This document shows positions 24,039-43,152 of a stretch of DNA of 64,000 nucleotides, in pieces. Numbering within the stretch: position 1 is the stretch's first letter; the number at the start of each line of letters is the position of its first letter. Origin of the DNA: Herbidospora daliensis. Lineage in GTDB: Bacteria > Actinomycetota > Actinomycetes > Streptosporangiales > Streptosporangiaceae. The DNA lies in assembly GCF_001570585.1 (NCBI RefSeq), contig NZ_BBXF01000007.1, forward strand, positions 263,508-327,507. Reading direction: 5' to 3'. Below the pieces are notes generated by a model that was given only the letters and a program-made list of their open reading frames with translations, made no database searches and was not told where the DNA came from. Made by a program: the position numbers and the translations under genes.

Positions 24039-24048
24039 CCCGGTCTCC

Positions 24049-24357: not shown

Positions 24358-24371
24358 CGTCAATCGACGAT
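24356..24371. promoter_or_regulatory. Palindrome at the arsC/arsR junction
   Basis: ATCGTC-AATC-GACGAT is a perfect 6+4+6 repeat overlapping the arsR start and the arsC stop. It could be an internal operator for arsR-arsM, though its position over the start codon leaves this open. Confidence 0.35.
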
Positions 24372-27226: not shown

Positions 27227-27294
27227 TGAATTCTCCCAGGAGCTGGCGCTAGCATTCCTGCGGTTGGTAAACGTTCGGTAAAGGGGGCTTGTGG

Positions 27295-28725
27295 GTGACT
27301 GTCGTCGACCGGCCGAGAACGGCCGTGAAGCGCATGGGTCCCGGGTGGGCGGCGCGATATCGGGCCACGGTGATCGTCTCCGACATTCTGTGCGCCCTTC
27401 TCGCCGGTGGTCTGGCGGTCGTCGTCCGGTTCGGCGAGGTTACTCCCTACGTCGAGCCTTACGCACTGTCAAGCGCGGCGTTGCCGCTGTTGTGGGTGGT
27501 CGTCGTCGGGCTGAGCAGGGCTTATGAGCCGCGCTTCGCGGGGGTCGGGTCGGAGGAGTTCCGGCGGGTGGCGCGGGCCGGGGTGATGCTCACCGCCGCC
27601 GTCGCCGTGGTGGCGTACGTGACCAAGATCGACGTCGCACGGGGTTACGTTATCATCGCGTTACCGGTGATGACCCTTTTAACGCTGCTCGCCCGTTATG
27701 CCTTGCGGCGCAGACTGCACCACAAGCGGACGAAGCTCCAGTGCATGCGGCGGGTCATCGCGGTGGGGCACCAGGGGTCGGTCGCCGACCTCGTGCGGCT
27801 GCTCCAGAAGGAGCGCTACCACGGCATGCACATCGTCGGGGCGTGCCTGCCCGACGACCGCGCCTCCTCCGAAGAGGTGGGCGTGCCCGTGCTGGGCGGG
27901 TTCTCCGACGTGCCCCTCGTGGTGGCGCAGGCCCAGGCCGACACCGTCGCGGTGCTCGCCTGTCCCGAGCTCGACGGTTCGGCGTTGCGGCGGCTCGCCT
28001 GGCGGCTGGAGAAGTCGCGCACCGATCTGGTGGTGGCGCCGGCGCTGATGGAGGTCGCGGGGCCGCGTACGACGATCCGGCCGGTGGCGGGCATGCCGCT
28101 GCTGCACGTCGAGCACCCCGAACTGGCCGGCGGGCGGCGGCTCGTCAAGAACGTCTTCGACCGCGTCGTCGCGGGGGTCGGCCTGCTGCTGGTCTCCCCG
28201 TTGTTCCTGCTCATCGCGGCCGCCGTGCGGGCGACCAGTTCGGGGCCGGCCTTCTTCCGGCAGACCCGCGTCGGCAAGGACGGTCGCACGTTCACCATCG
28301 TCAAGTTCCGCACGATGGGCGTCGACGCCGAGAGCCGCAAGATCGAGCTGGCCAGCGACATCGACGGCGTGCTGTTCAAGATCAAGCACGATCCCCGCGT
28401 CACCCGCGTCGGCGCGTTCCTGCGCCGCCACTCCCTCGACGAGCTGCCCCAGCTCGTGAACGTGGTCAAGGGCGACATGTCCCTCGTCGGCCCCCGCCCG
28501 CCGCTGCCCGAGGAGGTCGCCCGCTACGGCGACGACGTCCGCAGGAGGCTGCTCGTGCGACCGGGCATGACCGGGTTGTGGCAGGTCAGCGGCCGATCGG
28601 ATCTGTCGTGGGAGGAAGCTGTACGGTTGGACCTGCGCTACATGGAAAACTGGTCACTCACCCTCGACCTCCAGATCATGTGGAAGACGTGGTCGGCCGT
28701 GGCACGCGGATCGGGAGCCTACTAA
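27295..28725 (+). CDS. Polyprenyl-phosphate sugar phosphotransferase (initiating, WbaP/CpsE type)
   Basis: Starts glycan synthesis by moving a sugar phosphate from a nucleotide sugar to undecaprenyl phosphate at the inner face of the membrane. The 476-residue protein has four hydrophobic segments (about 20-130), a nucleotide-binding-like middle part, a fifth segment near 285-305 and the catalytic domain with VKFRTMGVDAESRK, RRHSLDELPQL, LVGPRPPLP and RPGMTGLWQVSGR. GTG 27295 is favoured by AGGGGG 7 bases before it. Codons 123 and 129 are TTA, rare here. It opens the rightward half of the polysaccharide locus. Confidence 0.93.
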   Translation: MTVVDRPRTAVKRMGPGWAARYRATVIVSDILCALLAGGLAVVVRFGEVTPYVEPYALSSAALPLLWVVVVGLSRAYEPRFAGVGSEEFRRVARAGVMLTAAVAVVAYVTKIDVARGYVIIALPVMTLLTLLARYALRRRLHHKRTKLQCMRRVIAVGHQGSVADLVRLLQKERYHGMHIVGACLPDDRASSEEVGVPVLGGFSDVPLVVAQAQADTVAVLACPELDGSALRRLAWRLEKSRTDLVVAPALMEVAGPRTTIRPVAGMPLLHVEHPELAGGRRLVKNVFDRVVAGVGLLLVSPLFLLIAAAVRATSSGPAFFRQTRVGKDGRTFTIVKFRTMGVDAESRKIELASDIDGVLFKIKHDPRVTRVGAFLRRHSLDELPQLVNVVKGDMSLVGPRPPLPEEVARYGDDVRRRLLVRPGMTGLWQVSGRSDLSWEEAVRLDLRYMENWSLTLDLQIMWKTWSAVARGSGAY

Positions 28726-28731
28726 CCAGTG

Positions 28732-29487
28732 ATGACGATCAGAGACGATCATTCGCTCGCCGGAGACCTCGCGACGGAGGCGGGTGAGAAACTGCTCCGC
28801 CTGCGCGCCCAATACGGGTTCGACGACGCCAAGGCGCTGAAGGACGCGGGCGACCGCTCGTCCCACGACTTCCTCGTCGAATCGCTCGAACGGCTGCGCC
28901 CGAGCGACCACATCCTGTCCGAGGAGGGCGAGCGCACCAACCCGGCGCGGCTGTCGGCCAACCGGGTCTGGATCGTCGACCCGCTCGACGGCACCCGCGA
29001 GTTCTCCGAGGCCGGCCGCACCGACTGGGCCGTCCACGTGGCGTTGTGGGAAGAGGGCCGGCTCGCCGCCGGGGCCATTGCGCTCCCGGCCCAGGGCGCG
29101 ACGCTGACCACGGCCAACCCGCCGAAGCTGCCGGCCCCCAACGGCCAGCGCCCCCGGATCGCGGTGTCCCGCACCCGGCCGCCCGAGTTCGTGCAGAAGC
29201 TCGCCTACCTGGTCGGGGCCGACCTCGTGCCCATCGGCAGCGCCGGCGCGAAGATCGCCGCCGTGCTGACCGGTCAGGTCGAGGCATACGTCCACGCGGG
29301 TGGGCAGTATGAATGGGACTCGGCCGCCCCGGTGGCCGTGGCGCTGGCGGCCGGAGCCCACGCGAGCCGGATCGACGGGTCGGAACTGATCTACAACCAG
29401 GCCGACCCCTCGTTGCCGGATATCCTGGTTTCCCTACCAGACTTGGCGCCGACGCTGCTCGCCGGGATCCGTGATCTTCACCAGTAA
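28732..29487 (+). CDS. cysQ: 3'(2'),5'-bisphosphate nucleotidase, CysQ
   Basis: Removes the 3' phosphate of PAP, the by-product and inhibitor of sulfotransferases, giving AMP. The 251-residue protein shows the inositol-phosphatase-type metal site: SEEGE, DPLDGTREFSE and, near the C-terminus, WDSAAPVAVALAAG. It is followed 17 bases later by cysD. Its place between the initiating transferase and cysDN supports PAP recycling for the sulfotransferases of this locus. Confidence 0.92.
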   Translation: MTIRDDHSLAGDLATEAGEKLLRLRAQYGFDDAKALKDAGDRSSHDFLVESLERLRPSDHILSEEGERTNPARLSANRVWIVDPLDGTREFSEAGRTDWAVHVALWEEGRLAAGAIALPAQGATLTTANPPKLPAPNGQRPRIAVSRTRPPEFVQKLAYLVGADLVPIGSAGAKIAAVLTGQVEAYVHAGGQYEWDSAAPVAVALAAGAHASRIDGSELIYNQADPSLPDILVSLPDLAPTLLAGIRDLHQ

Positions 29488-29504
29488 CCCGAGAAGGAAC
29501 CGTT

Positions 29505-30419
29505 TTGCTTCAGCATGACTACACGACGTCACAGCTTGACGTCCTCGAAGCCGAGGCGATCCACATCATGCGTGAGGTCGCGGCCGAGTTCGAGCGGCCC
29601 TGTCTGCTCTTCTCCGGCGGCAAGGACTCGATCGTCATGCTGCGTATCGCGGAGAAGGCCTTCTGGCCCGCGCCGATCCCGTTCCCGCTCATGCACGTCG
29701 ACACGGGCCACAACTTCCCCGAGGTGATCGACTACCGCGACCGGCGGTCGGCCGAGCTCGGGGCGCGGCTGGTGGTGGCGTCCGTACAGGACTCGATCGA
29801 CGCCGGCCGCGTGGTCGAGGAGACCGGGCGGCGCGCCTCGCGCAACCGGCTCCAGACCACCACCCTCCTCGACGCGATCGAGGAGCACGAGTTCGACGCC
29901 GTGTTCGGCGGCGCGCGCCGCGACGAGGAGAAGGCCCGCGCCAAGGAGCGGGTGTTCTCCTTCCGCGACGACTTCGGCCAGTGGGACCCGAAGAACCAGC
30001 GTCCCGAGCTGTGGAACCTCTACAACGCGAAGATCCGCAAGGGTGAGCACATCCGGGTCTTCCCGCTGTCCAACTGGACCGAGCTCGACGTGTGGGACTA
30101 CATCCGCCGCGAGGGCATCGAGATCCCGTCGATCTACTTCGCGCACACCCGCAGCGTCTTCGAGCGCGACGGCATGCTGCTGCCCGACGCCGACGTGGTG
30201 CAGCGCGGCGACGACGAGCCGCTGTTCGAGTCGCTGGTGCGTTATCGCACGGTCGGCGACATGACCTGCACCGGCGCCGTCTCGTCGAGCGCCGCGACGG
30301 TCGACGAGATCATCGCTGAGATCGCCGCCACCCGGATCACCGAGCGCGGCGCGACCCGCGCCGACGACCGCGCGTCCGAGGCCGCCATGGAGGACCGCAA
30401 GAAGGAAGGCTACTTCTAA
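29505..30419 (+). CDS. cysD: Sulfate adenylyltransferase small subunit
   Basis: With CysN makes APS from sulfate and ATP. The 304-residue PP-loop ATPase has LLFSGGKDSIVML, HVDTGHNFPEVI, GGARRDEEKARAKER and RYRTVGDMTCTG. It begins with a TTG codon: GAAGGA lies 6 bases before it and no ATG or GTG fits the family N-terminus. Its TAA stop shares one base with the cysN ATG. Confidence 0.96.
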   Translation: MLQHDYTTSQLDVLEAEAIHIMREVAAEFERPCLLFSGGKDSIVMLRIAEKAFWPAPIPFPLMHVDTGHNFPEVIDYRDRRSAELGARLVVASVQDSIDAGRVVEETGRRASRNRLQTTTLLDAIEEHEFDAVFGGARRDEEKARAKERVFSFRDDFGQWDPKNQRPELWNLYNAKIRKGEHIRVFPLSNWTELDVWDYIRREGIEIPSIYFAHTRSVFERDGMLLPDADVVQRGDDEPLFESLVRYRTVGDMTCTGAVSSSAATVDEIIAEIAATRITERGATRADDRASEAAMEDRKKEGYF

Positions 30420-31663
30420 TGGACATCCTTCGTTTCGCGACGGCGGGCAGTGTCGACGACGGGAAGTCCACCCTGATCGGCCGCCTCCTGTTCGACTCCA
30501 AGGCGATCTTCGAAGACCAGCTCGAAGCGGTCGAGCGCACCAGCCGCGACCGGGGCACCGAATACACCGACCTGTCGCTGCTGACCGACGGCCTGCGCGC
30601 CGAGCGCGAGCAGGGCATCACGATCGACGTGGCCTACCGCTACTTCGCCACGCCGAAGCGGAAGTTCATCATCGCCGACACCCCGGGGCACATCCAGTAC
30701 ACCCGGAACATGGTGACCGGCGCCTCGACCGCCGACCTGGCGATCATCCTGATCGACGCGCGCAAGGGCGTGCTGGAGCAGTCGCGCCGCCACGCGTTCC
30801 TGACCACGCTGCTGCGGGTGCCCCACCTGGTGCTCGCGGTCAACAAGATGGACCTGGTCGACTACTCCGAGGAGCGGTTCGAGGAGATCCGCGAGGAGTT
30901 CACCCAGTTCGCGTCCAAGCTGAACGCGAGCGACCTGACCTTCATCCCGATCTCCGCCCTCCACGGCGACAACGTGGTCTCGCGGTCCGAGAGCATGCCC
31001 TGGTACCAGGGCCCATCGCTGCTCCACCACCTGGAGCACGTCCACATCGCCTCCGACCGCAACCTGGTCGACGTGCGGTTCCCGGTCCAGTACGTCATCC
31101 GCCCCCACAAGACCGAGTTCCACGACTACCGGGGTTACGCCGGTCAGGTCGCGGGCGGCGTGCTGAAGCCGGGCGACGACGTCATGCACCTGCCGTCGGG
31201 CCTGACCACGAAGATCGCCTCGATCGACACCTTCGACGGCCCGGTCACCGAGGCGTTCGCGCCCATGTCGGTGACGCTCCGGCTCGAAGACGACATCGAC
31301 ATCTCGCGCGGCGACATGATCTGCCGGCCGAACAACCAGCCGCAGGTCAGCCAGGAGATCGAGGCGATGGTCTGCTGGATGGCCGACACCGCCAAGCTCA
31401 CCCCGCGCACCAAGCTGACCATCAAGCACACCACCCGGACCGCCCGCGCGCTGGTGAAGGACCTCCACTACCGGCTCGACGTCAACACCCTCCACCGCGA
31501 CGAGACGGCCACGAGCCTGTCGCTCAACGAGATCGGCCGGGTGTCGCTGCGCATCACCCAGCCGCTGTTCGTCGACGACTACGCCCGCAACCGGCAGACC
31601 GGCGGGTTCATCCTGATCGACGAGGCCACCAACGGCACCGTCGGCGCGGGGATGATCCTCTAG
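30419..31663 (+). CDS. cysN: Sulfate adenylyltransferase large subunit (GTPase)
   Basis: GTPase that drives CysD. The 414-residue EF-Tu-like protein has GSVDDGKSTLIGRLL (P-loop), EQGITIDVAYR, DTPGHIQYTRNM and VNKMDLV, then beta-barrel domains. It ends without the APS kinase domain that is fused to CysN in some actinobacteria. The kinase is supplied by the separate cysC at 41860-43068. No terminator is visible after it; a 103-base gap leads to the first sulfotransferase. Confidence 0.96.
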   Translation: MDILRFATAGSVDDGKSTLIGRLLFDSKAIFEDQLEAVERTSRDRGTEYTDLSLLTDGLRAEREQGITIDVAYRYFATPKRKFIIADTPGHIQYTRNMVTGASTADLAIILIDARKGVLEQSRRHAFLTTLLRVPHLVLAVNKMDLVDYSEERFEEIREEFTQFASKLNASDLTFIPISALHGDNVVSRSESMPWYQGPSLLHHLEHVHIASDRNLVDVRFPVQYVIRPHKTEFHDYRGYAGQVAGGVLKPGDDVMHLPSGLTTKIASIDTFDGPVTEAFAPMSVTLRLEDDIDISRGDMICRPNNQPQVSQEIEAMVCWMADTAKLTPRTKLTIKHTTRTARALVKDLHYRLDVNTLHRDETATSLSLNEIGRVSLRITQPLFVDDYARNRQTGGFILIDEATNGTVGAGMIL

Positions 31664-31766
31664 TTGTAAACCGGTGCCTAGGTAGATCCTTGGACGTTCG
31701 GTGAACGCTTAGTTACTCTCCGCTGTAGCGTCAGCACGTTCCGTATCCACTTCGGGGGTCGTGCAC

Positions 31767-32678
31767 GTGTCTGACGCTCAGCCGATGATCTTTGTTGGAG
31801 GGCTGGGGCGCAGCGGGACGACGCTGCTGGAGCGCCTTCTCGGGGAGCTTCCCGGTGTCGCGCCGCTCGGCGAGGTCGTCCATCTGTGGCACCGGGGGGT
31901 GCGCGCCAACGAGCCCTGCGGTTGCGGGCGGCCGTTCGCCCAGTGCCGGTTCTGGCACGAGGTCGGCGACCGCGCCTTCGGGGGCTGGCGGCCGGCCAAG
32001 GCCGACCGGCTGCTCGAACTGCGCCACAAGGTCGACCGCACCCGCCGCGTTCCGGTGTTCGTGCTGGGCCTCATCAGCCGTGAGGCCCAGCTGACCGAGT
32101 ACGTCGCCGCGTATCACCGCATCTACGCGGCGGCGGCCGAGGTCGTCCGCGGCCAGGTCGTCATCGATTCGAGCAAGCACGCCTCGCTGGCCTACTGCCT
32201 GTCGGCCATCCTCGACCTGACGGTCGTCCACGTCGTGCGCGATCCGCGCGCGGTGGCCGCGTCGTGGCGGCGCAAGGTCGCGCGGCCGGAAGACGGCCGG
32301 CCGATGGCCCGGTGGTCGCCCGCGCGCACCGCCGTCCACTGGTTCGTGCAGAACCTCGCCTACGAGGTGCTGCGCGGCAAGGGCGTGCCGATCGTCCGCG
32401 TCCACTACGAAGACCTCGTCGAAGAACCGGCCGACACGCTGCGCGCGCTGGCCGGCAAGCTCGGGCTGCCCGCCGACCACGAGGCGCTCGCCTTCATCAC
32501 GGGCCGCACCGCCCGGCTGGGCGTCGCCCACACCGTCTCGGGCAACCCGATGCGTTTCCACGTGGGCCGCGTGCGCTTCCGCGACCGGCGCCCCGACCTG
32601 CCCTTCCCCCACCGCTGGGCAGTCACCGCGCTGACGTTCCCCCTGCTCCTCTGGTACGGCTACCGCCTCAATTACTGA
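31767..32678 (+). CDS. Sulfotransferase family protein (first of three)
   Basis: A 303-residue cytosolic or membrane-associated enzyme expected to move sulfate from PAPS to a glycan hydroxyl. The PAPS 5'-phosphosulfate loop reads VGGLGRSGTTLLERLL, the 3'-phosphate strand HVVRDPRAVAASW. CGCGRPFAQC near residue 50 and the end GNPMRF are shared by a bacterial sulfotransferase subfamily. GTG 31767 is favoured by GGGGG 8 bases upstream over GTG 31761. It lies directly behind the PAPS-supply genes. Confidence 0.88.
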   Translation: MSDAQPMIFVGGLGRSGTTLLERLLGELPGVAPLGEVVHLWHRGVRANEPCGCGRPFAQCRFWHEVGDRAFGGWRPAKADRLLELRHKVDRTRRVPVFVLGLISREAQLTEYVAAYHRIYAAAAEVVRGQVVIDSSKHASLAYCLSAILDLTVVHVVRDPRAVAASWRRKVARPEDGRPMARWSPARTAVHWFVQNLAYEVLRGKGVPIVRVHYEDLVEEPADTLRALAGKLGLPADHEALAFITGRTARLGVAHTVSGNPMRFHVGRVRFRDRRPDLPFPHRWAVTALTFPLLLWYGYRLNY

Positions 32679-32699
32679 ACTCCCGATCGGAGGCCAACG

Positions 32700-33563
32700 A
32701 TGACCCCGACCGTCGGCGTCGTCATCCCCACCCGTGGTGACCGTCCCCTGCGAGCGACGATCGATGGCGTGCTCGCCAACCGCCCGGCCGCCGTCGTGGT
32801 CGTCGTCGACGGGGCGCCGTTAGATTCGGTCGACGACGACCGCGTGAAGGTGCTGCCCAACTGCCTCAGCCCGGGGCTGCCGGGGGCGCGCAACACCGGC
32901 ACGGCGGCGCTCGACACCGATCTGGTGGCCTTCTGCGACGACGACGACGTGTGGCTGCCCGGGAAACTCGACGCGCAGGTCGACCTGCTGCGGCGGACGG
33001 GAGCGGAGTTCGCCAGCTGCGGCATCGAGGTCGAATACGGCTCGCGCCGGGTGACCCGGCTGGCCGGGACCGCCGAGATCACCGCCGCCGACCTGACCCG
33101 GTCGCGGATGGTGATGGTTCACGCCTCCACCTACGTGTTCCGGCGCGGCGCCCTGTGGGTCGACGAGAGCGCGCCGGCCGGCCAGAACGAAGACTGGGAC
33201 CTGGCCCTGCGCGCGGCCAAACGCCAGCCGATCGCCCACGTCGACCGGCCGCTGGTGCGGGTGCGGTGGGGCCGGTCCCACTACGCGACCCGCTGGGCCG
33301 ACCGCATCAGCGGCCTCGAATGGATGCTGGCCCGCCACCCCGAGATCGCCGACGACGCCCGGGGCGCGGCCCGCGTCTACGGGCAGCTGGCCTTCCACCA
33401 CGCCGCGCTCGGACGGCGCAAGGAGGCCCGGCGGTTCGCCAGGCTCGCCTTCCATTCGCGGCACCGGGAGCCCCGGGCGGCGCTGGCGCTGGCCGTGGCG
33501 GCCGGGCTCGTCTCGGCTCCGGCCGTGCTGAGCGCGCTGTATACCCGCGGTCACGGAATCTGA
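32700..33563 (+). CDS. Family 2 glycosyltransferase
   Basis: A 287-residue GT-A fold enzyme: VGVVIPTRGDRPL, SPGLPGARNTGTAAL, then the acidic metal/nucleotide motif FCDDDDVW and a later EDWDL acceptor-site motif. It would add one sugar to the lipid-linked repeat unit. An AGG-rich ribosome site precedes the ATG and the stop shares one base with the next start. Codon 41 is TTA. Confidence 0.9.
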   Translation: MTPTVGVVIPTRGDRPLRATIDGVLANRPAAVVVVVDGAPLDSVDDDRVKVLPNCLSPGLPGARNTGTAALDTDLVAFCDDDDVWLPGKLDAQVDLLRRTGAEFASCGIEVEYGSRRVTRLAGTAEITAADLTRSRMVMVHASTYVFRRGALWVDESAPAGQNEDWDLALRAAKRQPIAHVDRPLVRVRWGRSHYATRWADRISGLEWMLARHPEIADDARGAARVYGQLAFHHAALGRRKEARRFARLAFHSRHREPRAALALAVAAGLVSAPAVLSALYTRGHGI

Positions 33564-34351
33564 TGCGCACGCGCATCGTCGCGCCGCCCAAACGGCGGCG
33601 CGTCTCCGTGGGAGGGGTGGTCGTCGACCGGCTGACCGAGATCGAGGTGGTCGACCGGGTCATCGGGGCGATCCGGCGCGGGTCGGGCGGGCACCTGGTG
33701 ACGCCCAACGTCGACATCTGCCGGGCGTGCGCGCGCGACCCCGCGCTGCGCGCCCTGGTCCTGCGGGCCACCATCGCGGTCGCCGATGGCATGCCGCTGG
33801 TGTGGGCGACCCGGCTGCTCGGCAAGCCGGTGCCCGCCCGCATCACCGGGGCCGACCTGATCTGGTCGTTGTCGGAGGCGGCGGCCTTCTACCGGGTGCC
33901 CATCTACCTGCTCGGCGGGCCGCCCGGGGTGGGCGACCGGGCCGCCCGCGCGTTGTGCGAGCGGTATCCCGGGTTGTCGATCGCCGGGGTCGACGCGCCG
34001 CCGTGGGGGTTCGAGGACGACGCCGAGCAGTTCGCCGCGATGCGCGAGGCGCTGACGTCGGCGCGTCCGCTGCTGGTGTTCGTCGGGCTCGGCTTCCCCA
34101 AGCAGGATCTGCTGATCGAGCGGCTGCGGGGCGACCTGCCCGAGACCTGGTTCGTCGGTTGCGGGTCGGCCATCGCGTTCGCCGGGGGCGCCGTGGTGCG
34201 GGCGCCGGTCTGGATGCGCGACCGCGGGCTCGAATGGTTGTTCCGGCTGCTCAGCGAGCCGTCTCGGCTGGCCAGGCGCTATCTCGTCGACGACCTGCCG
34301 TTCGCGGTGCGGTTGCTGACGGTGTGCGCGGTGCGGCGGCTGTTCACCTGA
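33563..34351 (+). CDS. WecG/TagA/CpsF-type glycosyltransferase
   Basis: A 262-residue GT26-family enzyme. Typical elements are HLVTPNVDICRAC, VADGMPLVWATRLLG, RITGADLIW, YLLGGPPGV, FVGLGFPKQD and APVWMRDRGLEWLFRLLSEP. Relatives add ManNAc-type sugars to the lipid-linked acceptor in enterobacterial antigen, teichoic acid or capsule synthesis. It is the last rightward gene of this half and meets the leftward half tail-to-tail with an 8-base overlap. Confidence 0.93.
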   Translation: MRTRIVAPPKRRRVSVGGVVVDRLTEIEVVDRVIGAIRRGSGGHLVTPNVDICRACARDPALRALVLRATIAVADGMPLVWATRLLGKPVPARITGADLIWSLSEAAAFYRVPIYLLGGPPGVGDRAARALCERYPGLSIAGVDAPPWGFEDDAEQFAAMREALTSARPLLVFVGLGFPKQDLLIERLRGDLPETWFVGCGSAIAFAGGAVVRAPVWMRDRGLEWLFRLLSEPSRLARRYLVDDLPFAVRLLTVCAVRRLFT

Positions 34352-35201: not shown

Positions 35202-36535
35202 GCCGTCGCCCTGGCCAGCTGGGCGACCGGCAGCAGGTTCTTCACCAGCACCCCGCCCGCCCAGCCGAGCGCCGCGCCGAACGCGCCGTAGGCCGGGACC
35301 AGCAGCAGGTCGAGCCCGACCGTGACGGCCAGCGCGGCGGCGACGTTGCCGAGACTGGCCCCCGTCCGCCCCGAGGCGATCAGCACGACGTCGGCCATCC
35401 CGCACGCCGAGGCGACCATCATCGTCAGGGCCAGCACGACCGCGACGTCGGCCGCGTGGGCGTAGCCGTCGCCGAAGACCGGGAGGATCTGCGGCGCGAA
35501 GACGGCGTACCCGATCCAGAGAGGCCAGGTCAGGGCCATCTGGGTGCGGGCCGCCCGCCGATGGAGCGCGCGCGCCGCAGCCGGCTCTCCCTGGGCGAAC
35601 TTCCTGACCAGCTCCGCCTGTACGCCCTGCGCCAGCCCCTGCCCGACGAGCTGCCCGACCACCTTGAAGCGCGTCGCGGCGACGTAGAAGGCGGCCTCGG
35701 CCGGGCCGGCCAGCAGCGCGACGACCACGACGTCGAGCCGCTGGAACACGGCCTGCAGAGCGGCGGCCAGCGACCGGGGTGAGGTGTACCCCCAGAACTC
35801 CCGCCAGGTCGTCCGGGTCTCCGTGCCGCGCAGCCGGAACGCGGCGAGCACCAGCACCGGAACCGCCGGGACGCCCCACGCGACGATGAGCCAGGGCGCG
35901 GACAGCCCGGCCGCCAGCGCGCCGCCCACGAACAGCAGCTGCGCGACCGGCTGAACCAGCCCGCTGAGCAGCAGCGTCTCGCGCATGGCCCCGGTCCCGC
36001 GCGTGGCCGCCACCAGCACATCGGCCACGACGACGAACGGCAGGACGAGCGCGAGCGCGGGTTCGGCACCGGCCAGCAGCACAGCGGCGGCCAGCGCCCC
36101 GGCGACGACGGGGATCAGCGCCACGGCGAGAAGGGACCGGCCGGCCGTTGTCCCGAAATTTCCGGACGAGTTCTGGCCCGACGCCCGTTCACGCAGCCTG
36201 CCGGTCGTGGGCCGGGTGGTGACGACGGCCACCTGCCCGGCGGGGACGGCCTCCTGGCCCAGGTGGTCAGGCCTGGAGGTGGCCTCCTGGTCCGGGACGT
36301 TGCGGTCCGCGTCGGGCGACGATGCGGCTGGTTCGCGGGCGCGGAAGTAGATCAGGCCGTTGCCCGTGTCCAGGCGTAACACCCCGGCCAGCATCAGCCC
36401 CAAGGTCGTCGTGGTGAAGAACGCGCCCGCTTCGGCCGGGGGCAGGGTGCGGGTGACGAGCAGGGTGACGGCGAACTGGGCGGTCGCGGTGGTCCCGGCT
36501 GTGGCCAGGCCCGCCACAGATCTCAGACGCGCCAT
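35198..36535 (-). CDS. Polysaccharide flippase (Wzx/MATE-like) with long hydrophilic insert
   Basis: A 445-residue membrane protein of the oligosaccharide-flippase type with about twelve hydrophobic segments, expected to turn lipid-linked repeat units to the outer face. Between the second and third segment (about residues 65-132) lies an unusual hydrophilic, Pro/Ser/Asp-rich stretch that homologues normally lack. Codon 53 is TTA (36377-36379). The start overlaps the preceding sulfotransferase gene by 13 bases. Confidence 0.85.
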   Translation of the reverse strand: MARLRSVAGLATAGTTATAQFAVTLLVTRTLPPAEAGAFFTTTTLGLMLAGVLRLDTGNGLIYFRAREPAASSPDADRNVPDQEATSRPDHLGQEAVPAGQVAVVTTRPTTGRLRERASGQNSSGNFGTTAGRSLLAVALIPVVAGALAAAVLLAGAEPALALVLPFVVVADVLVAATRGTGAMRETLLLSGLVQPVAQLLFVGGALAAGLSAPWLIVAWGVPAVPVLVLAAFRLRGTETRTTWREFWGYTSPRSLAAALQAVFQRLDVVVVALLAGPAEAAFYVAATRFKVVGQLVGQGLAQGVQAELVRKFAQGEPAAARALHRRAARTQMALTWPLWIGYAVFAPQILPVFGDGYAHAADVAVVLALTMMVASACGMADVVLIASGRTGASLGNVAAALAVTVGLDLLLVPAYGAFGAALGWAGGVLVKNLLPVAQLARATA

Positions 36536-37344
36536 GAAGGGGTCGCGTCGAGCCACGACAGGAGCAGGGCGTCCCACGGCAGGAAGTGCTCCGACAGGCG
36601 GGCGTGCAGGGCGCGGGGGACCGGCGCGTGCGGCCGGGCGTTGTGGCGGTCGAAGACGGGGTCGGCCATCGGCGGCAGGCCGAGGAACGACAGCAGGTCG
36701 TCGTAGACCGGCAGCGGGTCGGCGAAGAAGCGGCCGCTGTCGACGACCTTGACGCGGTCGCGGGGGATCACCGGTTCGAGGCGGGCGAGTTGTTCGGCGT
36801 AGCGGCCCCGGGCCAGGTAGGCGTGGTGGCGGTGGGCGTGGCTCGACGACAGCGGGGCCGCGCACAACCGGGCGCTCTCCCCGGCCAGCCGTTCGGGTTC
36901 CAGGTCGATCGCGCGGGCGAACGACGGCTCCGACTCGAACCCCCGGGCCAGCTCGTGGGCGTGGGCCGAAATGGCACGTTCCACCGGATCCCGGACCAGC
37001 ACGATCAGCTTCACGTCCGGCAGGTCCCACGCGATGCGCGGCCCGGCCAGCGGGTGGAACAGGTAGTAGGGCGACGACTCGAACGCCATCAGCCCCGGCC
37101 GCCGCAGCGGGAAGTGGGCCCGATACCAGGCCAGACCGCGTCCGTAGGCCATGTCGAAGTAGTGCACGCCCTTGCGCAGCACCGGCTTGGCCACCATCGG
37201 GTGTTGCGACAGCGCCCGGTAGAGGGAGGTCGTGCCACAACGCTGCGCGCCCACGATGAGGAACGACGGGAGCATGCGGGCGCCCCCGGTCAGCCGCCCC
37301 GCCGTGATCGACACGGCGTGGGCGGTCGTCTTCAGGGCGTTCAC
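36523..37344 (-). CDS. Sulfotransferase family protein (third of three, NDST-like)
   Basis: A 273-residue enzyme similar in layout to heparan-sulfate-type sulfotransferase domains: IVGAQRCGTTSLYRALSQHP (PAPS loop), KGVHYFD, IVLVRDPVERAISAHAHE (3'-phosphate site) and a late YDDLLSFLGLPP. GTG start, overlapping the stop of the upstream kinase-like gene by 4 bases. Together with the two others it suggests sulfation at several positions. Confidence 0.9.
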   Translation of the reverse strand: MNALKTTAHAVSITAGRLTGGARMLPSFLIVGAQRCGTTSLYRALSQHPMVAKPVLRKGVHYFDMAYGRGLAWYRAHFPLRRPGLMAFESSPYYLFHPLAGPRIAWDLPDVKLIVLVRDPVERAISAHAHELARGFESEPSFARAIDLEPERLAGESARLCAAPLSSSHAHRHHAYLARGRYAEQLARLEPVIPRDRVKVVDSGRFFADPLPVYDDLLSFLGLPPMADPVFDRHNARPHAPVPRALHARLSEHFLPWDALLLSWLDATPSWRV

Positions 37345-38246
37345 GTCAGGGGTTCCAGCCCGTCGACGGCGGGGTTCAGCCACGTGGCGGGCGAACCGAG
37401 CGGCTCGTGGCCGGCGGCGCGGTGGCGTTCGGCCAGGGTCATCAGGTAGGCGGCGGCGGTCACGCGGGCCTCTTCGTAAGAGATCCCGAAGGGTTCCAGC
37501 AGGCGGCCCGACTGCGCGACGCACGCCTTCGCCGCCGACACGGGACGCATGCGCCGCAGGGCGGTCTGGAAGAAGTAGTGCAGCGTGTCGAAGCCCGGCG
37601 GCACGCCGGTGCCGAACCGTTCCCAGTCCCAGACCAGCAGCCGGTCGCCCATCGGGGCGACGTTCCACGGCGAGAAGTCGCCGTGCCAGGAGCCCTTGCC
37701 GAGCGCGGCGATCTCCTTGGCGGCGGCGGCGAGCAGGTCGGCCGACGGCCTGCCCTTGGTGACCGGCAGCGGCGTCAACACCAGGACGTCGAGGTCGCGC
37801 CACACCCCGTGGTGCATGACCTTGGGCGCGACGACGACGTCGAACGAGTGGCGGGCGATCGCCCGCAGGGTGTCGGTCTCGTGGCGGATCAGGTCTCGGG
37901 TGTGCGGCTGGTCGCCGATCTTCACGAAGGCCAGGAGGCCGGCGTCGCCGTACAGCTCCAGGACGGGTTTGCGGTTCGCGCGGCGGGCCGGGCGCACGTG
38001 CAGTGTGGCCCGCACCCGGCGGCCGAGCACGTCGCCGAGGTGGGTTTCGATGGTGTCGGGCCCGTCGGGGACCAGCACCCGCCCGCCGACATGCCAGGCC
38101 GCGCGCGGCACCAGCCGCCGGGGGACGAGCCGGCTCGGCACCAGAGTCCGGGCCGAAGAAGTGGTGGACGGCGGGAACAGCAAGGAGATCACCTCATCCA
38201 GATAGCGCAGACGTATGCGGAAGTCCTTCACGTCGCGTTCCGCCAC
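37341..38246 (-). CDS. Kinase-like phosphotransferase in the polysaccharide operon
   Basis: A 301-residue protein of the aminoglycoside/choline-kinase fold. The catalytic loop reads WHGDFSPWNVAP and the metal Asp follows in LLVWDWERFG. An N-lobe Lys lies in LLAFVKIGD, with a Glu in the next helix (RHETDTL). It might phosphorylate a sugar or a lipid-linked intermediate. The acceptor cannot be told from sequence. It overlaps both neighbours, so it belongs to the operon. Confidence 0.82.
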   Translation of the reverse strand: MAERDVKDFRIRLRYLDEVISLLFPPSTTSSARTLVPSRLVPRRLVPRAAWHVGGRVLVPDGPDTIETHLGDVLGRRVRATLHVRPARRANRKPVLELYGDAGLLAFVKIGDQPHTRDLIRHETDTLRAIARHSFDVVVAPKVMHHGVWRDLDVLVLTPLPVTKGRPSADLLAAAAKEIAALGKGSWHGDFSPWNVAPMGDRLLVWDWERFGTGVPPGFDTLHYFFQTALRRMRPVSAAKACVAQSGRLLEPFGISYEEARVTAAAYLMTLAERHRAAGHEPLGSPATWLNPAVDGLEPLT

Positions 38247-39490
38247 AGGACCGCGAACGAGATCAGATAGAGGGTCAGGGCACTGACGAGGCCGTCGTAG
38301 ATGAACATGTAGAAGAGGACGAGGAGCATGACCAGGCTCCCCGCCTGCCCGATCGGCGACCGATCATGCCAGTGCCGCCTGACCGCCCCGGCGAAGAAGG
38401 CGACGTAGAGGGCCGCCCCGGTGAAGCCCTGGGTGATGAGCAGCAGCCAGAGTTGCCCGTCGGAGCCCAGCGGAGGATGCCCGCAGGACCGGCACCAGCC
38501 GGTCCGGCCGGTGGTGACCGTGCGGTGGTTGCCGAACGCGTTGCGGGTGTTGCCGTAGCCGATGACCGGCGACGTCGCGGCGACCGCGACCGTGGTCGCG
38601 ACCGTGAAGGCGCGGATGTCGTTGGAGTGGGGCCGGTCGACCCGCGCGGTCACGACCTGGCCCAGCGGCGAGAACGTGAACGCCGCCGCGGTGGCGGCCG
38701 CGAGGGTCAGCAGCGCCGCCCGGTTCCGGTTCCGGACGATCAGGTACGCCACCCCGACGGCGATCGCCGCCCACAACCCCCGGTTGAGGGAGTACACGAT
38801 CGGCACGGCCGCGACGACGACCGCGACCACCGCGACCACCCGGCGGGCGGGCCCGCCGTAGACCCACCAGCCGACGACGAACCAGACCAGCAGGATCGAG
38901 ACGTTGCCGCCCCAGGCGTTGGCCCACTCGAACGGCGCCTCCGGCCGCGGGGAGGGGTGCCCGAGCACCCACTGGATCTGCGCGGCCGTCGGGTGGACGA
39001 GGTTGGTGACGAAGGCATGGTCGGGCAGCAGGTGCTCCATCGGCGCGGTGAACTCGAACTCCGGCGCGAGCACGCCGAGCAGCCCGCCCGCCACCGTGGT
39101 GAGGAACAGCACCCCGAGCATCCTGACCAGGGTGAGCTGGGGGAGCTCCTCCTTGGTGAGGTTGCCCAGGTAGAGCACCACGACGAAGAGCGCGACGTAG
39201 ACGGTGAGCCGCATCGTCCAGCCGACCACCCGGCCCATTCCGAACTCGCCGTAGGTCCCGGCGGGGGTGGCGTCGAGCATGACCGCGCTGATGAGGTAGC
39301 CGACGATGAGCAGCGCCCACAGGCCCATGCCCCGGGGAATGAGAATGGGCCGCCGTAACCAGAGCACGGCGGCCATCGGCACGGCGACCACCACGATGGA
39401 CAACCCGCCGAACCCGAGGGCCCACCAGACGGGGTAACCCACGAGGAACGCCGCGATCGGCCACGCGGCGGGCGCCGGCCGCCAGGTCAC
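38228..39490 (-). CDS. O-antigen ligase/polymerase-like membrane protein (Wzy type)
   Basis: A 420-residue membrane protein with ten or more hydrophobic segments and a large outer loop between about 290 and 350 with GYGNTRNAFGNH and a CRSCGHPPLGSDGQLW stretch, the pattern of Wzy polymerases and WaaL ligases. It would join repeat units outside the membrane. GTG start with GTGA overlap to the chain-length gene. Codon 45 is TTA (39356-39358, LWLRRP). Confidence 0.85.
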   Translation of the reverse strand: MTWRPAPAAWPIAAFLVGYPVWWALGFGGLSIVVVAVPMAAVLWLRRPILIPRGMGLWALLIVGYLISAVMLDATPAGTYGEFGMGRVVGWTMRLTVYVALFVVVLYLGNLTKEELPQLTLVRMLGVLFLTTVAGGLLGVLAPEFEFTAPMEHLLPDHAFVTNLVHPTAAQIQWVLGHPSPRPEAPFEWANAWGGNVSILLVWFVVGWWVYGGPARRVVAVVAVVVAAVPIVYSLNRGLWAAIAVGVAYLIVRNRNRAALLTLAAATAAAFTFSPLGQVVTARVDRPHSNDIRAFTVATTVAVAATSPVIGYGNTRNAFGNHRTVTTGRTGWCRSCGHPPLGSDGQLWLLLITQGFTGAALYVAFFAGAVRRHWHDRSPIGQAGSLVMLLVLFYMFIYDGLVSALTLYLISFAVLWRNAT

Positions 39491-40698
39491 AGCAGATCTC
39501 GGCGTTGCTGGGGGATGTCGACCGTCGGGGGCTGCTGCGAGCGCAGCGCGTCGACGGCGAGCGTGCCGGGCGCGCCCGCCGGGTCGACGGCGACCACGCC
39601 CAGCACGTCGACGCCCCGGCGCTTCAGCGACTTGGCCGCGCGGATGACCCACGGCGCCCGGATCCGGCCGAGGGCCACGGCCAGCACGGCCGCGTCGGTC
39701 GGGCCCGCGGTGACCAGCAAGACGCCGCCGCCCGGCGGGAAGCCCTCCTCCAGCGTCCAGGCCACGTGGGCCGGTTCGACCCCCAGGCCCTCGACCAGCA
39801 CGCTCCGGTGCCCGGCCGCCGTCACCACGGCGGCGAACTCCTCGCCCTGGGGAAGCAGGGCGAGGTTGGTCAGCCGTTCGACGTCGGCCGGGGTTCGGAG
39901 GCGGAGGTCGGAGCGGTCGCGGGCGAAGGCCGCTCCCACGCCGAGCAGGATGCCGGCGAAGAGGCCGCCCCCCACGTACAGGGAGGGGCGCGGTTCGCTG
40001 GCCGTCTCCGGGGGAGACGCGGGGGTGATCACGGTGCCGGGGGTGACGGCGGTGGTCTTCAGCACGTCGTACCGGAGCGTGAGAGCGGTCGCCTGGCGGG
40101 TCAGCACGGTCTGCTGGTGGGCGGCCAGGGCGCGTTGCGGGGTGCCCTTCGGGTGCCGGGACATCGTGACGAGCGCGGTGCTCAGCTGGCTGTTGACCAG
40201 GCGGAGCTTGGCCAGGATCGCCTGCTTCTGCTCGGTCAGCTGCGCCTCGGCCGAGGCCAGGCGGTGGGCCAGGTAGGCGTCGGCGAACGCCTGCGCGCCC
40301 CGGGCGGCGCCGTCGGCGTCGGGCCAGGTGAACGAAATCCGAAGAATTCCCGAATTGGGCGGCACATCAACGGAAACCTGCCCCCGAAGGTCTTCGGGGT
40401 CGCCTCCAATAACGCGTGACGCATTCGTCGCCACCACGGACGATTGTGCGATCTGCACCTCGGTGTCGAGATTGAGAGCTTCGCGCTGCCGGGCGGTCAC
40501 CACGTTCTGCGGCTCTCCGAGCCCGGTCGGGGACACCTGCACCTCGGCGACCCCGAGATAGGCCGTCGGGGCCGTCCACAGCAGGGCGACACCGCCGGCG
40601 ACGCCCAGGAACAGGCAGGTCAAGGCGGTGATCCAGCGGCGGCGGAACACGGAGCCGTACTCCGCGAGGTCCCGGCTGTGCGGCGGTGGCAGGCTCAT
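39487..40698 (-). CDS. Wzz-type polysaccharide chain-length/co-polymerase protein
   Basis: A 403-residue protein. An N-terminal membrane segment (about 25-45) precedes a periplasm-facing helical stretch (60-235), a second membrane segment (about 243-262) and a cytoplasmic C-terminal part. That part resembles the tyrosine-kinase half of such proteins but has no intact Walker A motif (GVLLVTAGPTDAAV). It would set chain length with the polymerase. First gene of the leftward operon. Confidence 0.84.
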   Translation of the reverse strand: MSLPPPHSRDLAEYGSVFRRRWITALTCLFLGVAGGVALLWTAPTAYLGVAEVQVSPTGLGEPQNVVTARQREALNLDTEVQIAQSSVVATNASRVIGGDPEDLRGQVSVDVPPNSGILRISFTWPDADGAARGAQAFADAYLAHRLASAEAQLTEQKQAILAKLRLVNSQLSTALVTMSRHPKGTPQRALAAHQQTVLTRQATALTLRYDVLKTTAVTPGTVITPASPPETASEPRPSLYVGGGLFAGILLGVGAAFARDRSDLRLRTPADVERLTNLALLPQGEEFAAVVTAAGHRSVLVEGLGVEPAHVAWTLEEGFPPGGGVLLVTAGPTDAAVLAVALGRIRAPWVIRAAKSLKRRGVDVLGVVAVDPAGAPGTLAVDALRSQQPPTVDIPQQRRDLL

Positions 40699-40781
40699 GT
40701 CGGTCTCCGATGGGGGTGAAGCGACTACGAACCCTAGCCGGGTGCGGTGATTACCCCGGTGCTAATTACAGAATTTCTGCT

Positions 40782-40813
40782 GGCGAATCACGGAACAATA
40801 ACGGCGATTCGCC
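40782..40813. promoter_or_regulatory. Inverted repeat in the wzz-GH26 divergent region
   Basis: GGCGAATC (40782-40789) and GATTCGCC (40806-40813) form a perfect 8-bp inverted repeat with 16 bases between. They lie between the divergent leftward operon and the GH26 gene, and could be a shared operator. Confidence 0.45.
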
Positions 40814-40850
40814 GGACATGTCGGAGCTGCGTTCTGGAAAAGGAGGTCAC

Positions 40851-40913
40851 ATGTTCTCCCCCGGCAGTGGAAAGGTGAATCCATGCGCTGGGCAATCACG
40901 GTGGTCGTGTTGA
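40851..40913 (+). CDS. Possible 20-residue leader peptide before GH26
   Basis: AAAAGGAGGT, the best ribosome site in the window, stands 4 bases before an ATG that opens only a 20-codon frame (MFSPGSGKVNP and a Cys-ending tail). The frame runs past the GH26 start at 40883 in another frame. It may couple or gate translation of the GH26 gene. No family is known; it could be chance. Confidence 0.4.
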   Translation: MFSPGSGKVNPCAGQSRWSC

Positions 40914-41971
40914 TGATGGCGGGCTGCTCCCTGGCTTCGGGAGCCGCCGAGCGGAAGGTGCCGAGAACCGAGCCGCCGATCGCCGCGCCCTGCGCCGTCA
41001 CCGGCGTGCTGATCCCCACCTGCGGCGCCTGGTGGGGCATCGCGCCCGAGGTCTTCACCGGCCGGGGCCCGGCGCGCGGCCTGCAACGGGCCGAGCAGCG
41101 CATGGGCCGCCGCGCCGACATCCTGCACGTCTACCACCGCGCCGGCGAGCTCTTCCCGACCGACGAGGAGCGCCTGCTCGCGAAAGACCGGCTGCTGCTG
41201 GTCAACTGGAAGCCGTCACTGCGCCACACCTGGGCCGAGATCGCCTCAGGCGCGCTCGACCGGCGCATCGACAAGCTGGCCGCGCACATCACGGCGACCT
41301 TCCCGCAGCGCTTCTTCCTGACGATCCACCACGAACCGGAGAACGACGTCCGGCCCGTCGAAGGCATGGCCGCCGACGACTACGCGGCGATGTTCCGCCA
41401 CGTCGTGCTGCGGCTGCGGGAGAAGGGCGTCACCAACGCGGTCACCGTGATGACCTACATGGGCGCGCCCAACTGGTCGTCGGCGTCGTGGTTCGAGCGC
41501 CTCTACCCGGGCGACGCGGTGGTCGACTGGATCGGCGTCGACCCCTACGCCGACGACCGCGTCACCGACTTCGCCTCGCTCGTCGACAAACGCCGCCCCG
41601 ACCACCCCGACTGGCCGGGCTTCTACCGCTGGGCCCAGTCGCGTTTCCCGGCCAAGCCGATCATGGTCGCCGAGTGGGGGGTCTTCGAGCGGCCCGGCTT
41701 CAAGGCCGCCTTCTTCGATTCGGTACGCCGCCAAATCGGCGCCTACCCGCAGATCAAGGCCCTGGTCTACTTCGACTCCCCGTGGGCGCCCCGGGGCGAC
41801 ACCCGGTTCGACACCACCCCCGACGCCGCCGAGGCGTTCCGGCGGCTCGGGAACTCGCCCTACCTGACCCAGCCGCCGGTCGTGAGGGCGTTCATCACCA
41901 GCGAGACCGCCCGCTCGACCGGCAGGCCGGTGGTGTCGATCTCCAAATCGGCGTCCTCGGGCTCCTCGTAG
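40883..41971 (+). CDS. GH26-like glycoside hydrolase lipoprotein
   Basis: A 362-residue exported lipoprotein. The signal is short, with lipobox MMAGC (Cys15). The catalytic domain (about 40-340) has HHEPEN with acid/base candidate Glu151 and MVAEWGVFE with nucleophile candidate Glu264, the GH26 pattern (beta-mannanase or related). It may trim or release the polysaccharide made by this locus, as hydrolases encoded in such clusters often do. GGAAAGG precedes the ATG by 8 bases. Its last 112 bases overlap the 3' end of convergent cysC. Confidence 0.8.
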   Translation: MRWAITVVVLMMAGCSLASGAAERKVPRTEPPIAAPCAVTGVLIPTCGAWWGIAPEVFTGRGPARGLQRAEQRMGRRADILHVYHRAGELFPTDEERLLAKDRLLLVNWKPSLRHTWAEIASGALDRRIDKLAAHITATFPQRFFLTIHHEPENDVRPVEGMAADDYAAMFRHVVLRLREKGVTNAVTVMTYMGAPNWSSASWFERLYPGDAVVDWIGVDPYADDRVTDFASLVDKRRPDHPDWPGFYRWAQSRFPAKPIMVAEWGVFERPGFKAAFFDSVRRQIGAYPQIKALVYFDSPWAPRGDTRFDTTPDAAEAFRRLGNSPYLTQPPVVRAFITSETARSTGRPVVSISKSASSGSS

Positions 41972-43068
41972 GGGGAGGAGACCCCGGTGAAGTCGGTGAT
42001 CAGCCCGGCGCGGGCCTTGGCGTAGAGGCCCTTGCGGTCGCGGCGCTCACACTCCTCGACGGGGGTGGAGATCCACACCAGCAGGAAGTCGGCGCCGACC
42101 TCCTCGGCCATCTCGCGGGCCTCCTCGCGGGTGTGGGCGTGCGGCGCGATCGGGGCGCAGATGGCCAGGCCGCCGTGCCGGGCGACCTCGCTGGCGACGT
42201 AGCCGATCCGGCGGATGTTCAGCTCGCGGTCCTCCGCCGAGAAGCCCAGCCCCTTCGACAACAGTCGCCTGACCACGTCGCCGTCGAGGTAGGTGACCGT
42301 CCGGCTGCCCTTCTCCAACAGCGCGTCGCGCACGCCCCGCGCCACGGTCGACTTGCCCGACCCCGACAGCCCGGTGAAGAACACCACCAGCCCGCGCCGG
42401 TGCGGCGGCCCGGGGATGCGGACCGGAGCGGGACCGGCGTAGTGCTCGGTCGCGCCGTAGTTGCGGGCGACGTGCTCGCGCAGTTCGAGGTCGATCTCGA
42501 CGTCCTCACGCGGCGCCAGCGGGACCGCCACCACCTGCGAGCCCGGCAGCTCGGCCTGCGCCTTCAGCGCCGCCCGCACCACCGCGGGCCCGGCCTCGCC
42601 GAACACCAGCGGCATCAGCAGGACCGTCGCCTCCAGCTCGTCGGCCGTGGCGGCGACGTCGGCCAGCGCGGGCCCGTCGAGCGGCCCGCGCATCGTGACC
42701 GCCAGCACCTCGCCGTCGGCCTTCACCTCGTCAGGTGTACGGCGCAGCCGCGCGAACGGCCCGTAGACGGGCGCGCCCAGCGCCTCCACCGGCCCCGCGG
42801 CGTGGTGCCCGTCGCGCTCGGTCACCGTCAGCACCGCCAGCGCGGCCCCCTCGGGATCGGTGAGGGTGACCCGGTCGCCGACGGCGATCTCGTCGGGCAG
42901 TGCGATGGTGACGGGGTCGGGCCACGGGGTGCCGTCGGCGAGCGTGCCCGTCTCCTCGACGGAGGCGGCGTCGGCCTTCCCGAGGAAACCGGTCAACGGC
43001 GCGAACGCTCCCGAGAGAAGCAGTTCGAGGTCGGCCAGTTCGCGGGCGTCGGGGGTCCAGTCGGTCAT
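41860..43068 (-). CDS. cysC: APS kinase with ATP-sulfurylase-like N-terminal domain
   Basis: A 402-residue protein. Residues 1-200 resemble the N-terminal and part of the catalytic domain of monomeric ATP sulfurylase (LSGAFAPLTGFLGKADA, VYGPFARLRRTP), without the full HxGH/QxRNP set. Residues 225-400 are APS kinase: FFTGLSGSGKSTVARGV (P-loop), LDGDVVRRLLSKGLGFS, NIRRIGYVA and KGLYAKARAGLITDFTG. It would turn APS from CysDN into PAPS. It stands at the edge of the polysaccharide locus and completes the sulfate-donor pathway. Confidence 0.92.
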   Translation of the reverse strand: MTDWTPDARELADLELLLSGAFAPLTGFLGKADAASVEETGTLADGTPWPDPVTIALPDEIAVGDRVTLTDPEGAALAVLTVTERDGHHAAGPVEALGAPVYGPFARLRRTPDEVKADGEVLAVTMRGPLDGPALADVAATADELEATVLLMPLVFGEAGPAVVRAALKAQAELPGSQVVAVPLAPREDVEIDLELREHVARNYGATEHYAGPAPVRIPGPPHRRGLVVFFTGLSGSGKSTVARGVRDALLEKGSRTVTYLDGDVVRRLLSKGLGFSAEDRELNIRRIGYVASEVARHGGLAICAPIAPHAHTREEAREMAEEVGADFLLVWISTPVEECERRDRKGLYAKARAGLITDFTGVSSPYEEPEDADLEIDTTGLPVERAVSLVMNALTTGGWVR

Positions 43069-43152
43069 GGTGGTCGATTTCCGATCTCGGCAGGCATAGG
43101 AGGAGCCGTACGGCGGCGTCTTGAAGGCTGACACATTCTCCAGGAGGTGACC

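Follow-up and report, generated by a model that had tools for sequence, protein, structure and literature searches.

A predicted sulfated polysaccharide locus joined to the cysQ-cysD-cysN operon in Herbidospora daliensis

Gene content and organization of the locus

The stretch of DNA analysed here, called the window, covers 64,000 nucleotides of Herbidospora daliensis (contig NZ_BBXF01000007.1, C7 for short, positions 263,508 to 327,507; coordinates below count from its first letter) in a genome of 8.52 Mb, and holds at 27289-43068 a group of 15 genes in which cysQ, cysD and cysN stand together with genes for polysaccharide assembly, three sulfotransferases and an adenosine 5'-phosphosulfate (APS) kinase. 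The product of this locus is probably a sulfated extracellular polysaccharide that is assembled through the Wzx/Wzy route, with CysDN shared and the APS kinase and CysQ forming the sulfation branch. The gene list that a first-pass annotation, made from the letters and their open reading frames, had given for this 16-kb block was borne out: all 15 genes are open frames where it had placed them, and most Pfam and NCBIfam models pass their cut-offs.

The first seven genes lie on the plus strand. An initiating polyprenyl-phosphate glycosylphosphotransferase of the WcaJ/PssY type (27289..28725) scores 234 bits with PF02397 and 432 bits with TIGR03025 (cut-off 295); with neither the WcaJ nor the WbaP model does it reach the cut-off. 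It is followed, at intergenic gaps of 3, 17 and -1 nucleotides, by a CysQ-like phosphatase for 3'-phosphoadenosine 5'-phosphate (PAP) (28729..29487; PF00459, Inositol_P, above cut-off), 99% identical to CysQ of Herbidospora solisilvae, by CysD, the ATP sulfurylase small subunit (29505..30419; TIGR02039 and NF003587 above cut-off, Pfam PAPS_reduct), and by CysN, the GTPase subunit (30419..31663; TIGR02034 594 bits against a cut-off of 336, GTP_EFTU). On the same strand are sulfotransferase ST1 (31761..32678; PF13469 above cut-off), a GT2 glycosyltransferase (32700..33563; PF00535, Glycos_transf_2, above cut-off) and a WecG/TagA/CpsF (GT26) glycosyltransferase (33563..34351; PF03808 177 bits), whose ATG start at 33563 overlaps the GT2 gene by 1 nucleotide.

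Six genes on the minus strand, with mutual overlaps of 4 to 19 nucleotides, encode sulfotransferase ST2 (34344..35201; PF13469/PF00685 above cut-off), a Wzx-type flippase (35198..36535; PF13440, barely above cut-off at 24 against 23 bits), the heparan-sulfate-sulfotransferase-like ST3 (36523..37344; PF00685/PF13469), a protein/aminoglycoside-kinase-like protein (37341..38246), a Wzy-like polymerase (38228..39490; PF04932, Wzy_C, 26.5 bits, below the cut-off of 31.7) and a Wzz-like chain-length protein (39487..40698; NCBIfam chain-length models, sub-threshold). The start of the Wzy-like gene is uncertain, and a GTG at 39490 fits. In the kinase-like protein HGD..PWN and DWE are invariant in 20 aligned rows, and its profile weakly matches choline kinase (E 0.016). 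On the plus strand follows a GH26-like secreted or lipoprotein glycoside hydrolase (40883..41971; phmmer match to Endoglucanase H, 2.4e-11), in which both candidate glutamates, which we take to be catalytic, line up with those of Endoglucanase H. The 3' part of its gene overlaps the convergent gene of a two-domain APS kinase on the minus strand (41860..43068, likely start ATG at 43068; PF01583 191 bits plus PUA_2), whose shortened ATP-sulfurylase domain looks dead. The Wzz-like, kinase-like and GH26-like proteins had no Pfam match at E 0.001, and together with Wzy they are the weakest assignments by profile in the locus.

Conservation and genomic context

A survey of 120 genomes drawn from Streptosporangiaceae found CysD in 119, and the best CysD locus was fetched from each of these, 91 stretches having the full 20 kb and stopping about 16 kb beyond the CysD start. 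Using the window proteins as queries, CysQ was found directly upstream of CysD in 117 of the 119 loci, CysN directly downstream in 118 and WcaJ directly before CysQ in 90. Among the 91 full stretches we distinguish a close clade of 43 (CysD at least 87% identical, plus genome G004) from 48 distant ones. Close-clade matches, out of 43, are WcaJ 42, ST1 41, GT2 38, WecG 38, ST2 34, ST3 33, kinase 33, flippase 32, Wzy 32, Wzz 31, GH26 30 and APS kinase 28; the absence of a Wzy match in 11 stretches is due in part to the block being longer than the stretch. The same block is thus syntenic in related genomes, which indicates that the gene grouping is not a chance one, and the co-occurrence of cysDNC and cysQ with exopolysaccharide genes, put forward in the first-pass annotation as a check on its proposal, was found in most close-clade loci.

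The locus lies between glmU, prs, rplY and pth at 12.2-18.9 kb of the window (pth at 18.3 kb) and mfd and mazG at 45.6-50.7 kb. Across the family, 101 of the 119 stretches include pth, the positions listed for it being upstream of cysD. The pth and mfd flanks and the family-wide linkage to pth place the locus in a core-genome interval. The arrangement pth-(WcaJ)-cysQ-cysD-cysN is also found without adjoining polymer genes in Actinoplanes, Glycomyces and some Micromonospora. At three other Micromonospora loci (L091, L104 and L105) a CysQ relative stands beside ST1- and GT2-like genes and without CysDN, which again appears to tie CysQ to sulfation genes.

Sulfotransferases

The first-pass annotation had called the three sulfotransferases divergent, in agreement with 26% identity between ST1 and ST2 and only short chance matches of ST3 to either. 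Both conserved motifs, which we take to be the 5'-phosphosulfate and 3'-phosphate binding motifs for 3'-phosphoadenosine 5'-phosphosulfate (PAPS), are kept at 95% or more in ST1 (32 rows), ST2 (25 rows) and ST3 (22 rows). Against the PDB, the ST3 profile gives as top match the 'Sulfotransferase' 3rnl (3.9e-24), followed by heparan-sulfate 3-O-sulfotransferases and NDST at 3.6e-18 to 1.4e-13 (3.6e-18 for the 3-O enzymes, 1.3e-16 for NDST). These heparan-sulfate enzymes act on polysaccharides, and ST3 is predicted to be of the glycan type. The ST1 profile matches polyketide and tyrosylprotein sulfotransferases (1.6e-07 to 3.2e-06), and ST2 has weak matches only, at E 0.007 and above. All three sulfotransferase places are present in 31 of the 43 close-clade loci. 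ST2 is confined to this clade (34/43 loci, against 0/48 others) and had no match in 13 loci of Actinoplanes, Longispora, Glycomyces and Micromonospora, and from this restriction the close-clade polymer may carry one extra sulfate position.

The two-domain APS kinase

The APS kinase is longer than in the first-pass annotation, an ATP-sulfurylase remnant (PUA_2) being fused in front. Its best PDB match is 3cr8, across both domains (1.5e-87), which we take to be the Thiobacillus denitrificans two-domain APS kinase of Gay et al. 2009, reportedly, by the title, an APS kinase with a sulfurylase domain lacking activity. Both proteins have the sulfurylase domain in front of the kinase; unlike 3cr8, the window protein has lost about 100 further sulfurylase residues and its partner is a CysDN encoded in a glycan locus. 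Alignment with a true sulfurylase shows that all 24 rows (23 genomes, one protein being counted twice and a 25th locus yielding no row) lack the complete QxRNPxHxxH and GRDH motifs and retain an LEL..PLxGF segment. The close clade lacks both histidines of HxxH, and the distant clade keeps the first and has lost the second. In the human PAPS synthase a change of either of these histidines abolishes sulfurylase activity, according to the available part of PMC11697783. Thirteen further rows from 12 genomes of Actinoplanes, Longispora, Glycomyces and Micromonospora, obtained from 16 loci of which three had no frame fitting the search pattern, also lack complete motifs and resemble the distant clade. 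Given the loss of these motifs, a bifunctional sulfurylase/APS kinase was rejected, and the protein is, judging from its motifs, a two-domain APS kinase of the 3cr8 type with an inactive-looking sulfurylase domain.

APS kinase was found in 118 of the 120 family genomes and is the sole copy in 113 of them. Among the 117 genomes with both genes, it shares the contig of CysD in 80, always downstream (80/80) and at 2.5 to 35 kb, the two being on different contigs in the remaining 37. The sulfurylase model PF01747 has no match in the host genome and matches in 53 of the 120 family genomes. One match is strong, at 272.6 bits, and marks a true ATP sulfurylase, and the other 52 are weak, with scores from 20.8 to 67 bits; as 51 of the weak matches directly adjoin an APS-kinase match, they are taken to be the fused remnant domain.

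CysDN copies and sulfate supply

A single CysD match was found in 104 of the 119 family genomes, the second match in genomes G035, G060 and G071 being a piece of the same gene or having E 3.7e-4. At least two PAPS_reductase-family matches occur in 116 of the 119, which indicates that CysH is present besides CysD. With Sir, queried by the C-terminal part of the host protein, there was no match in the 91 full 20-kb CysD loci. All 15 CysH sequences inspected, that of the host and those of 14 further family members, show the CC..CxxC and ECG(I/L)H pattern, which we take to mark an APS-reductase-type CysH. In Mycobacterium tuberculosis, whose CysH is termed an APS reductase, one CysDN likewise feeds APS reductase and PAPS-dependent sulfation; unlike in the window, APS kinase is fused to CysN there, and the sulfated products named in the available passages are sulfolipids (PMC4373884).

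The single CysD copy of most genomes, with CysH elsewhere, makes it most likely that the window CysDN is a housekeeping enzyme shared between cysteine synthesis and sulfation, whereas the PAPS branch, APS kinase and CysQ, looks tied to the glycan genes. The first-pass annotation had proposed a dedicated PAPS supply; for the APS kinase this seems to hold, and for CysDN serving mainly sulfation the copy counts give no support. It had also named a sole cysDN set, followed functionally by a cysH elsewhere, as a finding that would speak against its proposal, and this is largely what the family shows, although Herbidospora has two more sets.

The host genome has three CysD genes, the other two being 71% and 48% identical to that of the window, and two APS kinases. 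A second cysDN set beside cysH and sir, as the first-pass annotation had envisaged, was not found in the host, where the one sir-cysH pair lies on a different contig from the window without cysDN beside it and both extra sets adjoin a sulfotransferase of their own. Across seven Herbidospora genomes the window set is present in 7/7, the set of contig C4 in 6/7 and that of contig C3 in 5/7; lower CysD identity in one relative was traced to a run of N in the record, and a divergent CysD there was rejected. In the C4 set (at about 330 kb) cysD-cysN adjoins an AA_kinase-M20 peptidase frame and a sulfotransferase 37% identical to ST1, and the group has the appearance of a compact biosynthetic gene cluster whose product is a sulfated metabolite. 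The C3 set (at about 945 kb) consists of cysD and a frame in which CysN is fused to an APS kinase; its neighbours encode a Sulfotransfer_5 protein and aldo/keto reductase, argininosuccinate-synthase-like and AMP-binding/PP-binding/NAD_binding_4 proteins.

Relation to wps-1 of Actinoplanes missouriensis

In the literature searched on sulfated actinomycete polysaccharides and on two-domain APS kinases, only one paper deals directly with such a locus, that of June 2026 on wps-1 of Actinoplanes missouriensis (AMIS_7280-7380, with AMIS_7390 adjacent; PMC13390465, cited here from its available passages); the remark of the first-pass annotation that such polysaccharides are little described fits the literature up to that paper. 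Its authors predict a sulfated polysaccharide and link wps-1 to the sporangium matrix. Deletion of wpsA, C, G, H, I, J or K gave squashed sporangia; deletion of wpsB left sporangia normal-looking and lowered the released spores tenfold, and wpsD was dispensable and wpsF not. The authors place AMIS_7390 in the sulfate adenylyltransferase/APS kinase family and assign it to the synthesis of sulfur amino acids, and its deletion caused a severe sporangium defect, which they term 'unexpected', with growth the same by eye on the two media used (PMC13390465).

The two loci have in common genes for GT2, WecG, GH26 (GH26-like in the window), Wzx, a heparan-sulfate-type sulfotransferase, a kinase-like protein, Wzy and Wzz. 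In both, GT2, a sulfotransferase and WecG are encoded together, Wzx, the heparan-sulfate-type sulfotransferase, kinase, Wzy and Wzz come in the same order (the window Wzy and Wzz scores being sub-threshold), and a GH26 or GH26-like gene and an adjacent APS-kinase-family gene are present. In the window, GT2, WecG, ST3 and the kinase-like protein are the counterparts of WpsA, WpsC, WpsH and WpsI, and ST1 is the positional counterpart of WpsB. The sequence comparison was made with eight Actinoplanes and Paractinoplanes genomes other than that of A. missouriensis, which stand in for the AMIS proteins. In all eight of their loci GT2, ST1, WecG, flippase, ST3, kinase, Wzy, Wzz and APS kinase are together, and since this set matches the make-up of wps-1 plus AMIS_7390, the window locus can be considered a relative of wps-1. 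In Longispora (one locus) the APS kinase is also near polymer genes. Sixteen genomes found via CysQ were searched, the ST3 place being fetched in 13; all 16 have an ST3-profile match and one APS kinase, and 14 have one CysD. Actinoplanes and Longispora have two GH26-like matches, a distant one (22-29%) inside the locus and a closer one (43-48%) beyond or near the APS kinase.

Differences from wps-1 are found as well. The window has three sulfotransferases and wps-1 two, and no cysQDN and no named initiating transferase belong to wps-1, so that the window locus joins both halves. New here are the third sulfotransferase, the joining of wps-1-type genes to the core cysQDN operon, the conservation across much of the family and a candidate explanation of the kinase-mutant phenotype. 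As initiating transferase, for which wps-1 has no named gene, the one encoded before cysQ would be the candidate. Given the lost sulfurylase motifs and their status as the only APS kinases of their genomes, the relatives of AMIS_7390 may, in our reading, make PAPS for WpsB and WpsH.

Comparison with other systems

Sulfate-activation genes inside polysaccharide clusters are also found in the Gram-negative Cobetia marina and in a Vibrio. The capsule cluster of C. marina KMM 1449 holds cysNC, cysD, cysQ and sulfotransferase genes, and unlike the window it has an ABC-transporter (Kps/Wcb) route and includes a sulfate permease (PMC11766843). That of Vibrio sp. KMM 8419 holds cysC, cysN and cysD with sulfotransferases, and differs in that cysCND are second copies and the route is again that of an ABC transporter (PMC11641403). 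The structure of the sulfated polymer is reported in the available passages on both strains. These reports depart from the statement in the wps-1 paper that bacterial sulfated polysaccharides are known only from cyanobacteria (PMC13390465). In V. vulnificus, PAPS is linked to exopolysaccharide expression through signalling, according to the part of PMC6113621 available. The Planobispora rosea genome paper had no passage on sulfate, sulfotransferase or polysaccharide.

Proposed pathway and alternative explanations

Domains and gene context support the first-pass annotation in describing a glycan locus that has sulfotransferases, forms PAPS and probably removes PAP, and from them we infer the following sugar content and order of reactions. 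The WcaJ-type transferase would load the first sugar onto a lipid carrier, and GT2 and WecG would each add one sugar, giving a unit of about three sugars to which the three sulfotransferases would transfer sulfate from PAPS. The flippase would turn the unit outward, Wzy and Wzz would polymerise it and the GH26-like enzyme would trim the polymer. All the APS of the cell would come from CysDN. CysH and Sir, encoded elsewhere, would reduce one part of it to cysteine, and the two-domain APS kinase, encoded at the opposite end of the locus, would turn another part into PAPS for use by the sulfotransferases, with the resulting PAP cleared by CysQ. Considering the core-genome interval and the kinship to wps-1, a spore or hyphal matrix glycan would be the likeliest product.

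Several observations weigh against this interpretation. Sulfate in such a polymer is a prediction, also in A. missouriensis. The CysQ equivalog model TIGR01331 is missed (102.4 against 228.8 bits), the superfamily PF00459 being met, and the CysQ-like function rests on gene context. Of the 48 distant loci, 18 had no sulfotransferase match, against 2 of the 43 close ones, although divergent sulfotransferases may be missed, and the APS kinase is not beside polymer genes in two Glycomyces and two Micromonospora stretches (4/4). Among the 15 genes at 27289-43068 there is no match for a methyltransferase (WpsF) or a DUF4262 protein (WpsD), both part of wps-1, so the locus is a relative or variant of wps-1 and not a full member. 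CysH enzymes of the Cys-pair type can also reduce PAPS in some bacteria, and the two further cysDN sets of Herbidospora could feed cysteine synthesis. Outside the family, CysD and CysH, told apart by match length only, lie within 10 kb in only 14 of 44 actinobacterial genomes with both, and the idea that their separation is special to Streptosporangiaceae was rejected on this count. Finally, expression of AMIS_7390 is not induced along with that of wps-1 (PMC13390465).

Three other explanations have to be considered. The window cysDN could be a set dedicated to sulfation, with cysteine synthesis fed by another set, as the two other CysD genes, the position inside a glycan locus on a contig other than that of sir-cysH and the second cysCND copies in the Vibrio capsule cluster (PMC11641403) would allow. 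We regard this as unlikely, because both other sets adjoin sulfotransferases too and are less constant in Herbidospora than the window set, and because most family genomes have a single CysD match; on these copy counts (7/7 Herbidospora, 104/119 single match) a dedicated second cysDN set was rejected. It is still less probable that the polymer genes are no more than neighbours of a housekeeping cysQDN operon, the sulfotransferases being inactive or acting on an unrelated target. Such a reading draws on several Micromonospora in which cysQ-cysD-cysN stands beside pth and lacks these polymer genes, and on Actinoplanes, where only WcaJ accompanies it, but the sulfotransferase genes overlap the flippase and kinase genes, retain both PAPS motifs and accompany the polymer genes in Actinoplanes too, and deletion of wpsH gives squashed sporangia as does deletion of the flippase gene wpsG (PMC13390465).

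We give equally little credit to a sulfated product that is a glycolipid, glycoprotein or small molecule, comparable to mycobacterial sulfolipids, and not a polymer. The polyketide and tyrosylprotein sulfotransferases nearest to ST1 and the sub-threshold Wzy and Wzz assignments point that way, but ST3 appears to be of the glycan type, and the flippase, polymerase-like and chain-length-like genes occur together, their wps-1 counterparts bearing Wzx, Wzy and Wzz annotations (PMC13390465). The sulfated extracellular polysaccharide with a shared CysDN remains the preferred reading.

A wider proposal, for and against which we see about equal weight, is that spore-forming Streptosporangiaceae, Micromonosporaceae and Glycomycetaceae have long had, as part of their core genome, the capacity to make a sulfated matrix polymer resembling glycosaminoglycans. 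Cysteine would be made from APS without PAPS, and the single APS kinase with its pseudo-sulfurylase fusion would serve sulfation, mainly of this glycan. A housekeeping sulfate-activation operon would have been captured into a polymer locus, which would couple matrix formation to the sulfur status of the cell, and the AMIS_7390 defect would be a loss of PAPS. The locus gives specific and testable grounds for expecting a sulfated polysaccharide in much of one family of soil actinomycetes; it puts a name to the likely PAPS-supplying enzyme, predicts an initiating transferase for wps-1 and provides a candidate reason for the published phenotype of the AMIS_7390 mutant.

Neighbouring genes

Rfam at gathering thresholds identified two tRNAs only in the window, so no known riboswitch. 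A sigma-70-family gene, resembling those of extracytoplasmic function factors (43147-43647), is divergent from the APS kinase gene and is a possible regulator. Between pth and the glycan locus, at 22782-25558, are a methyltransferase-acetyltransferase fusion, a frame of the low-molecular-weight phosphatase/arsenate-reductase type and an aquaporin-type (MIP) frame; as pth falls within the 20-kb stretch around cysD at 101 of the 119 family loci, these genes seem to be an insertion in this genome.

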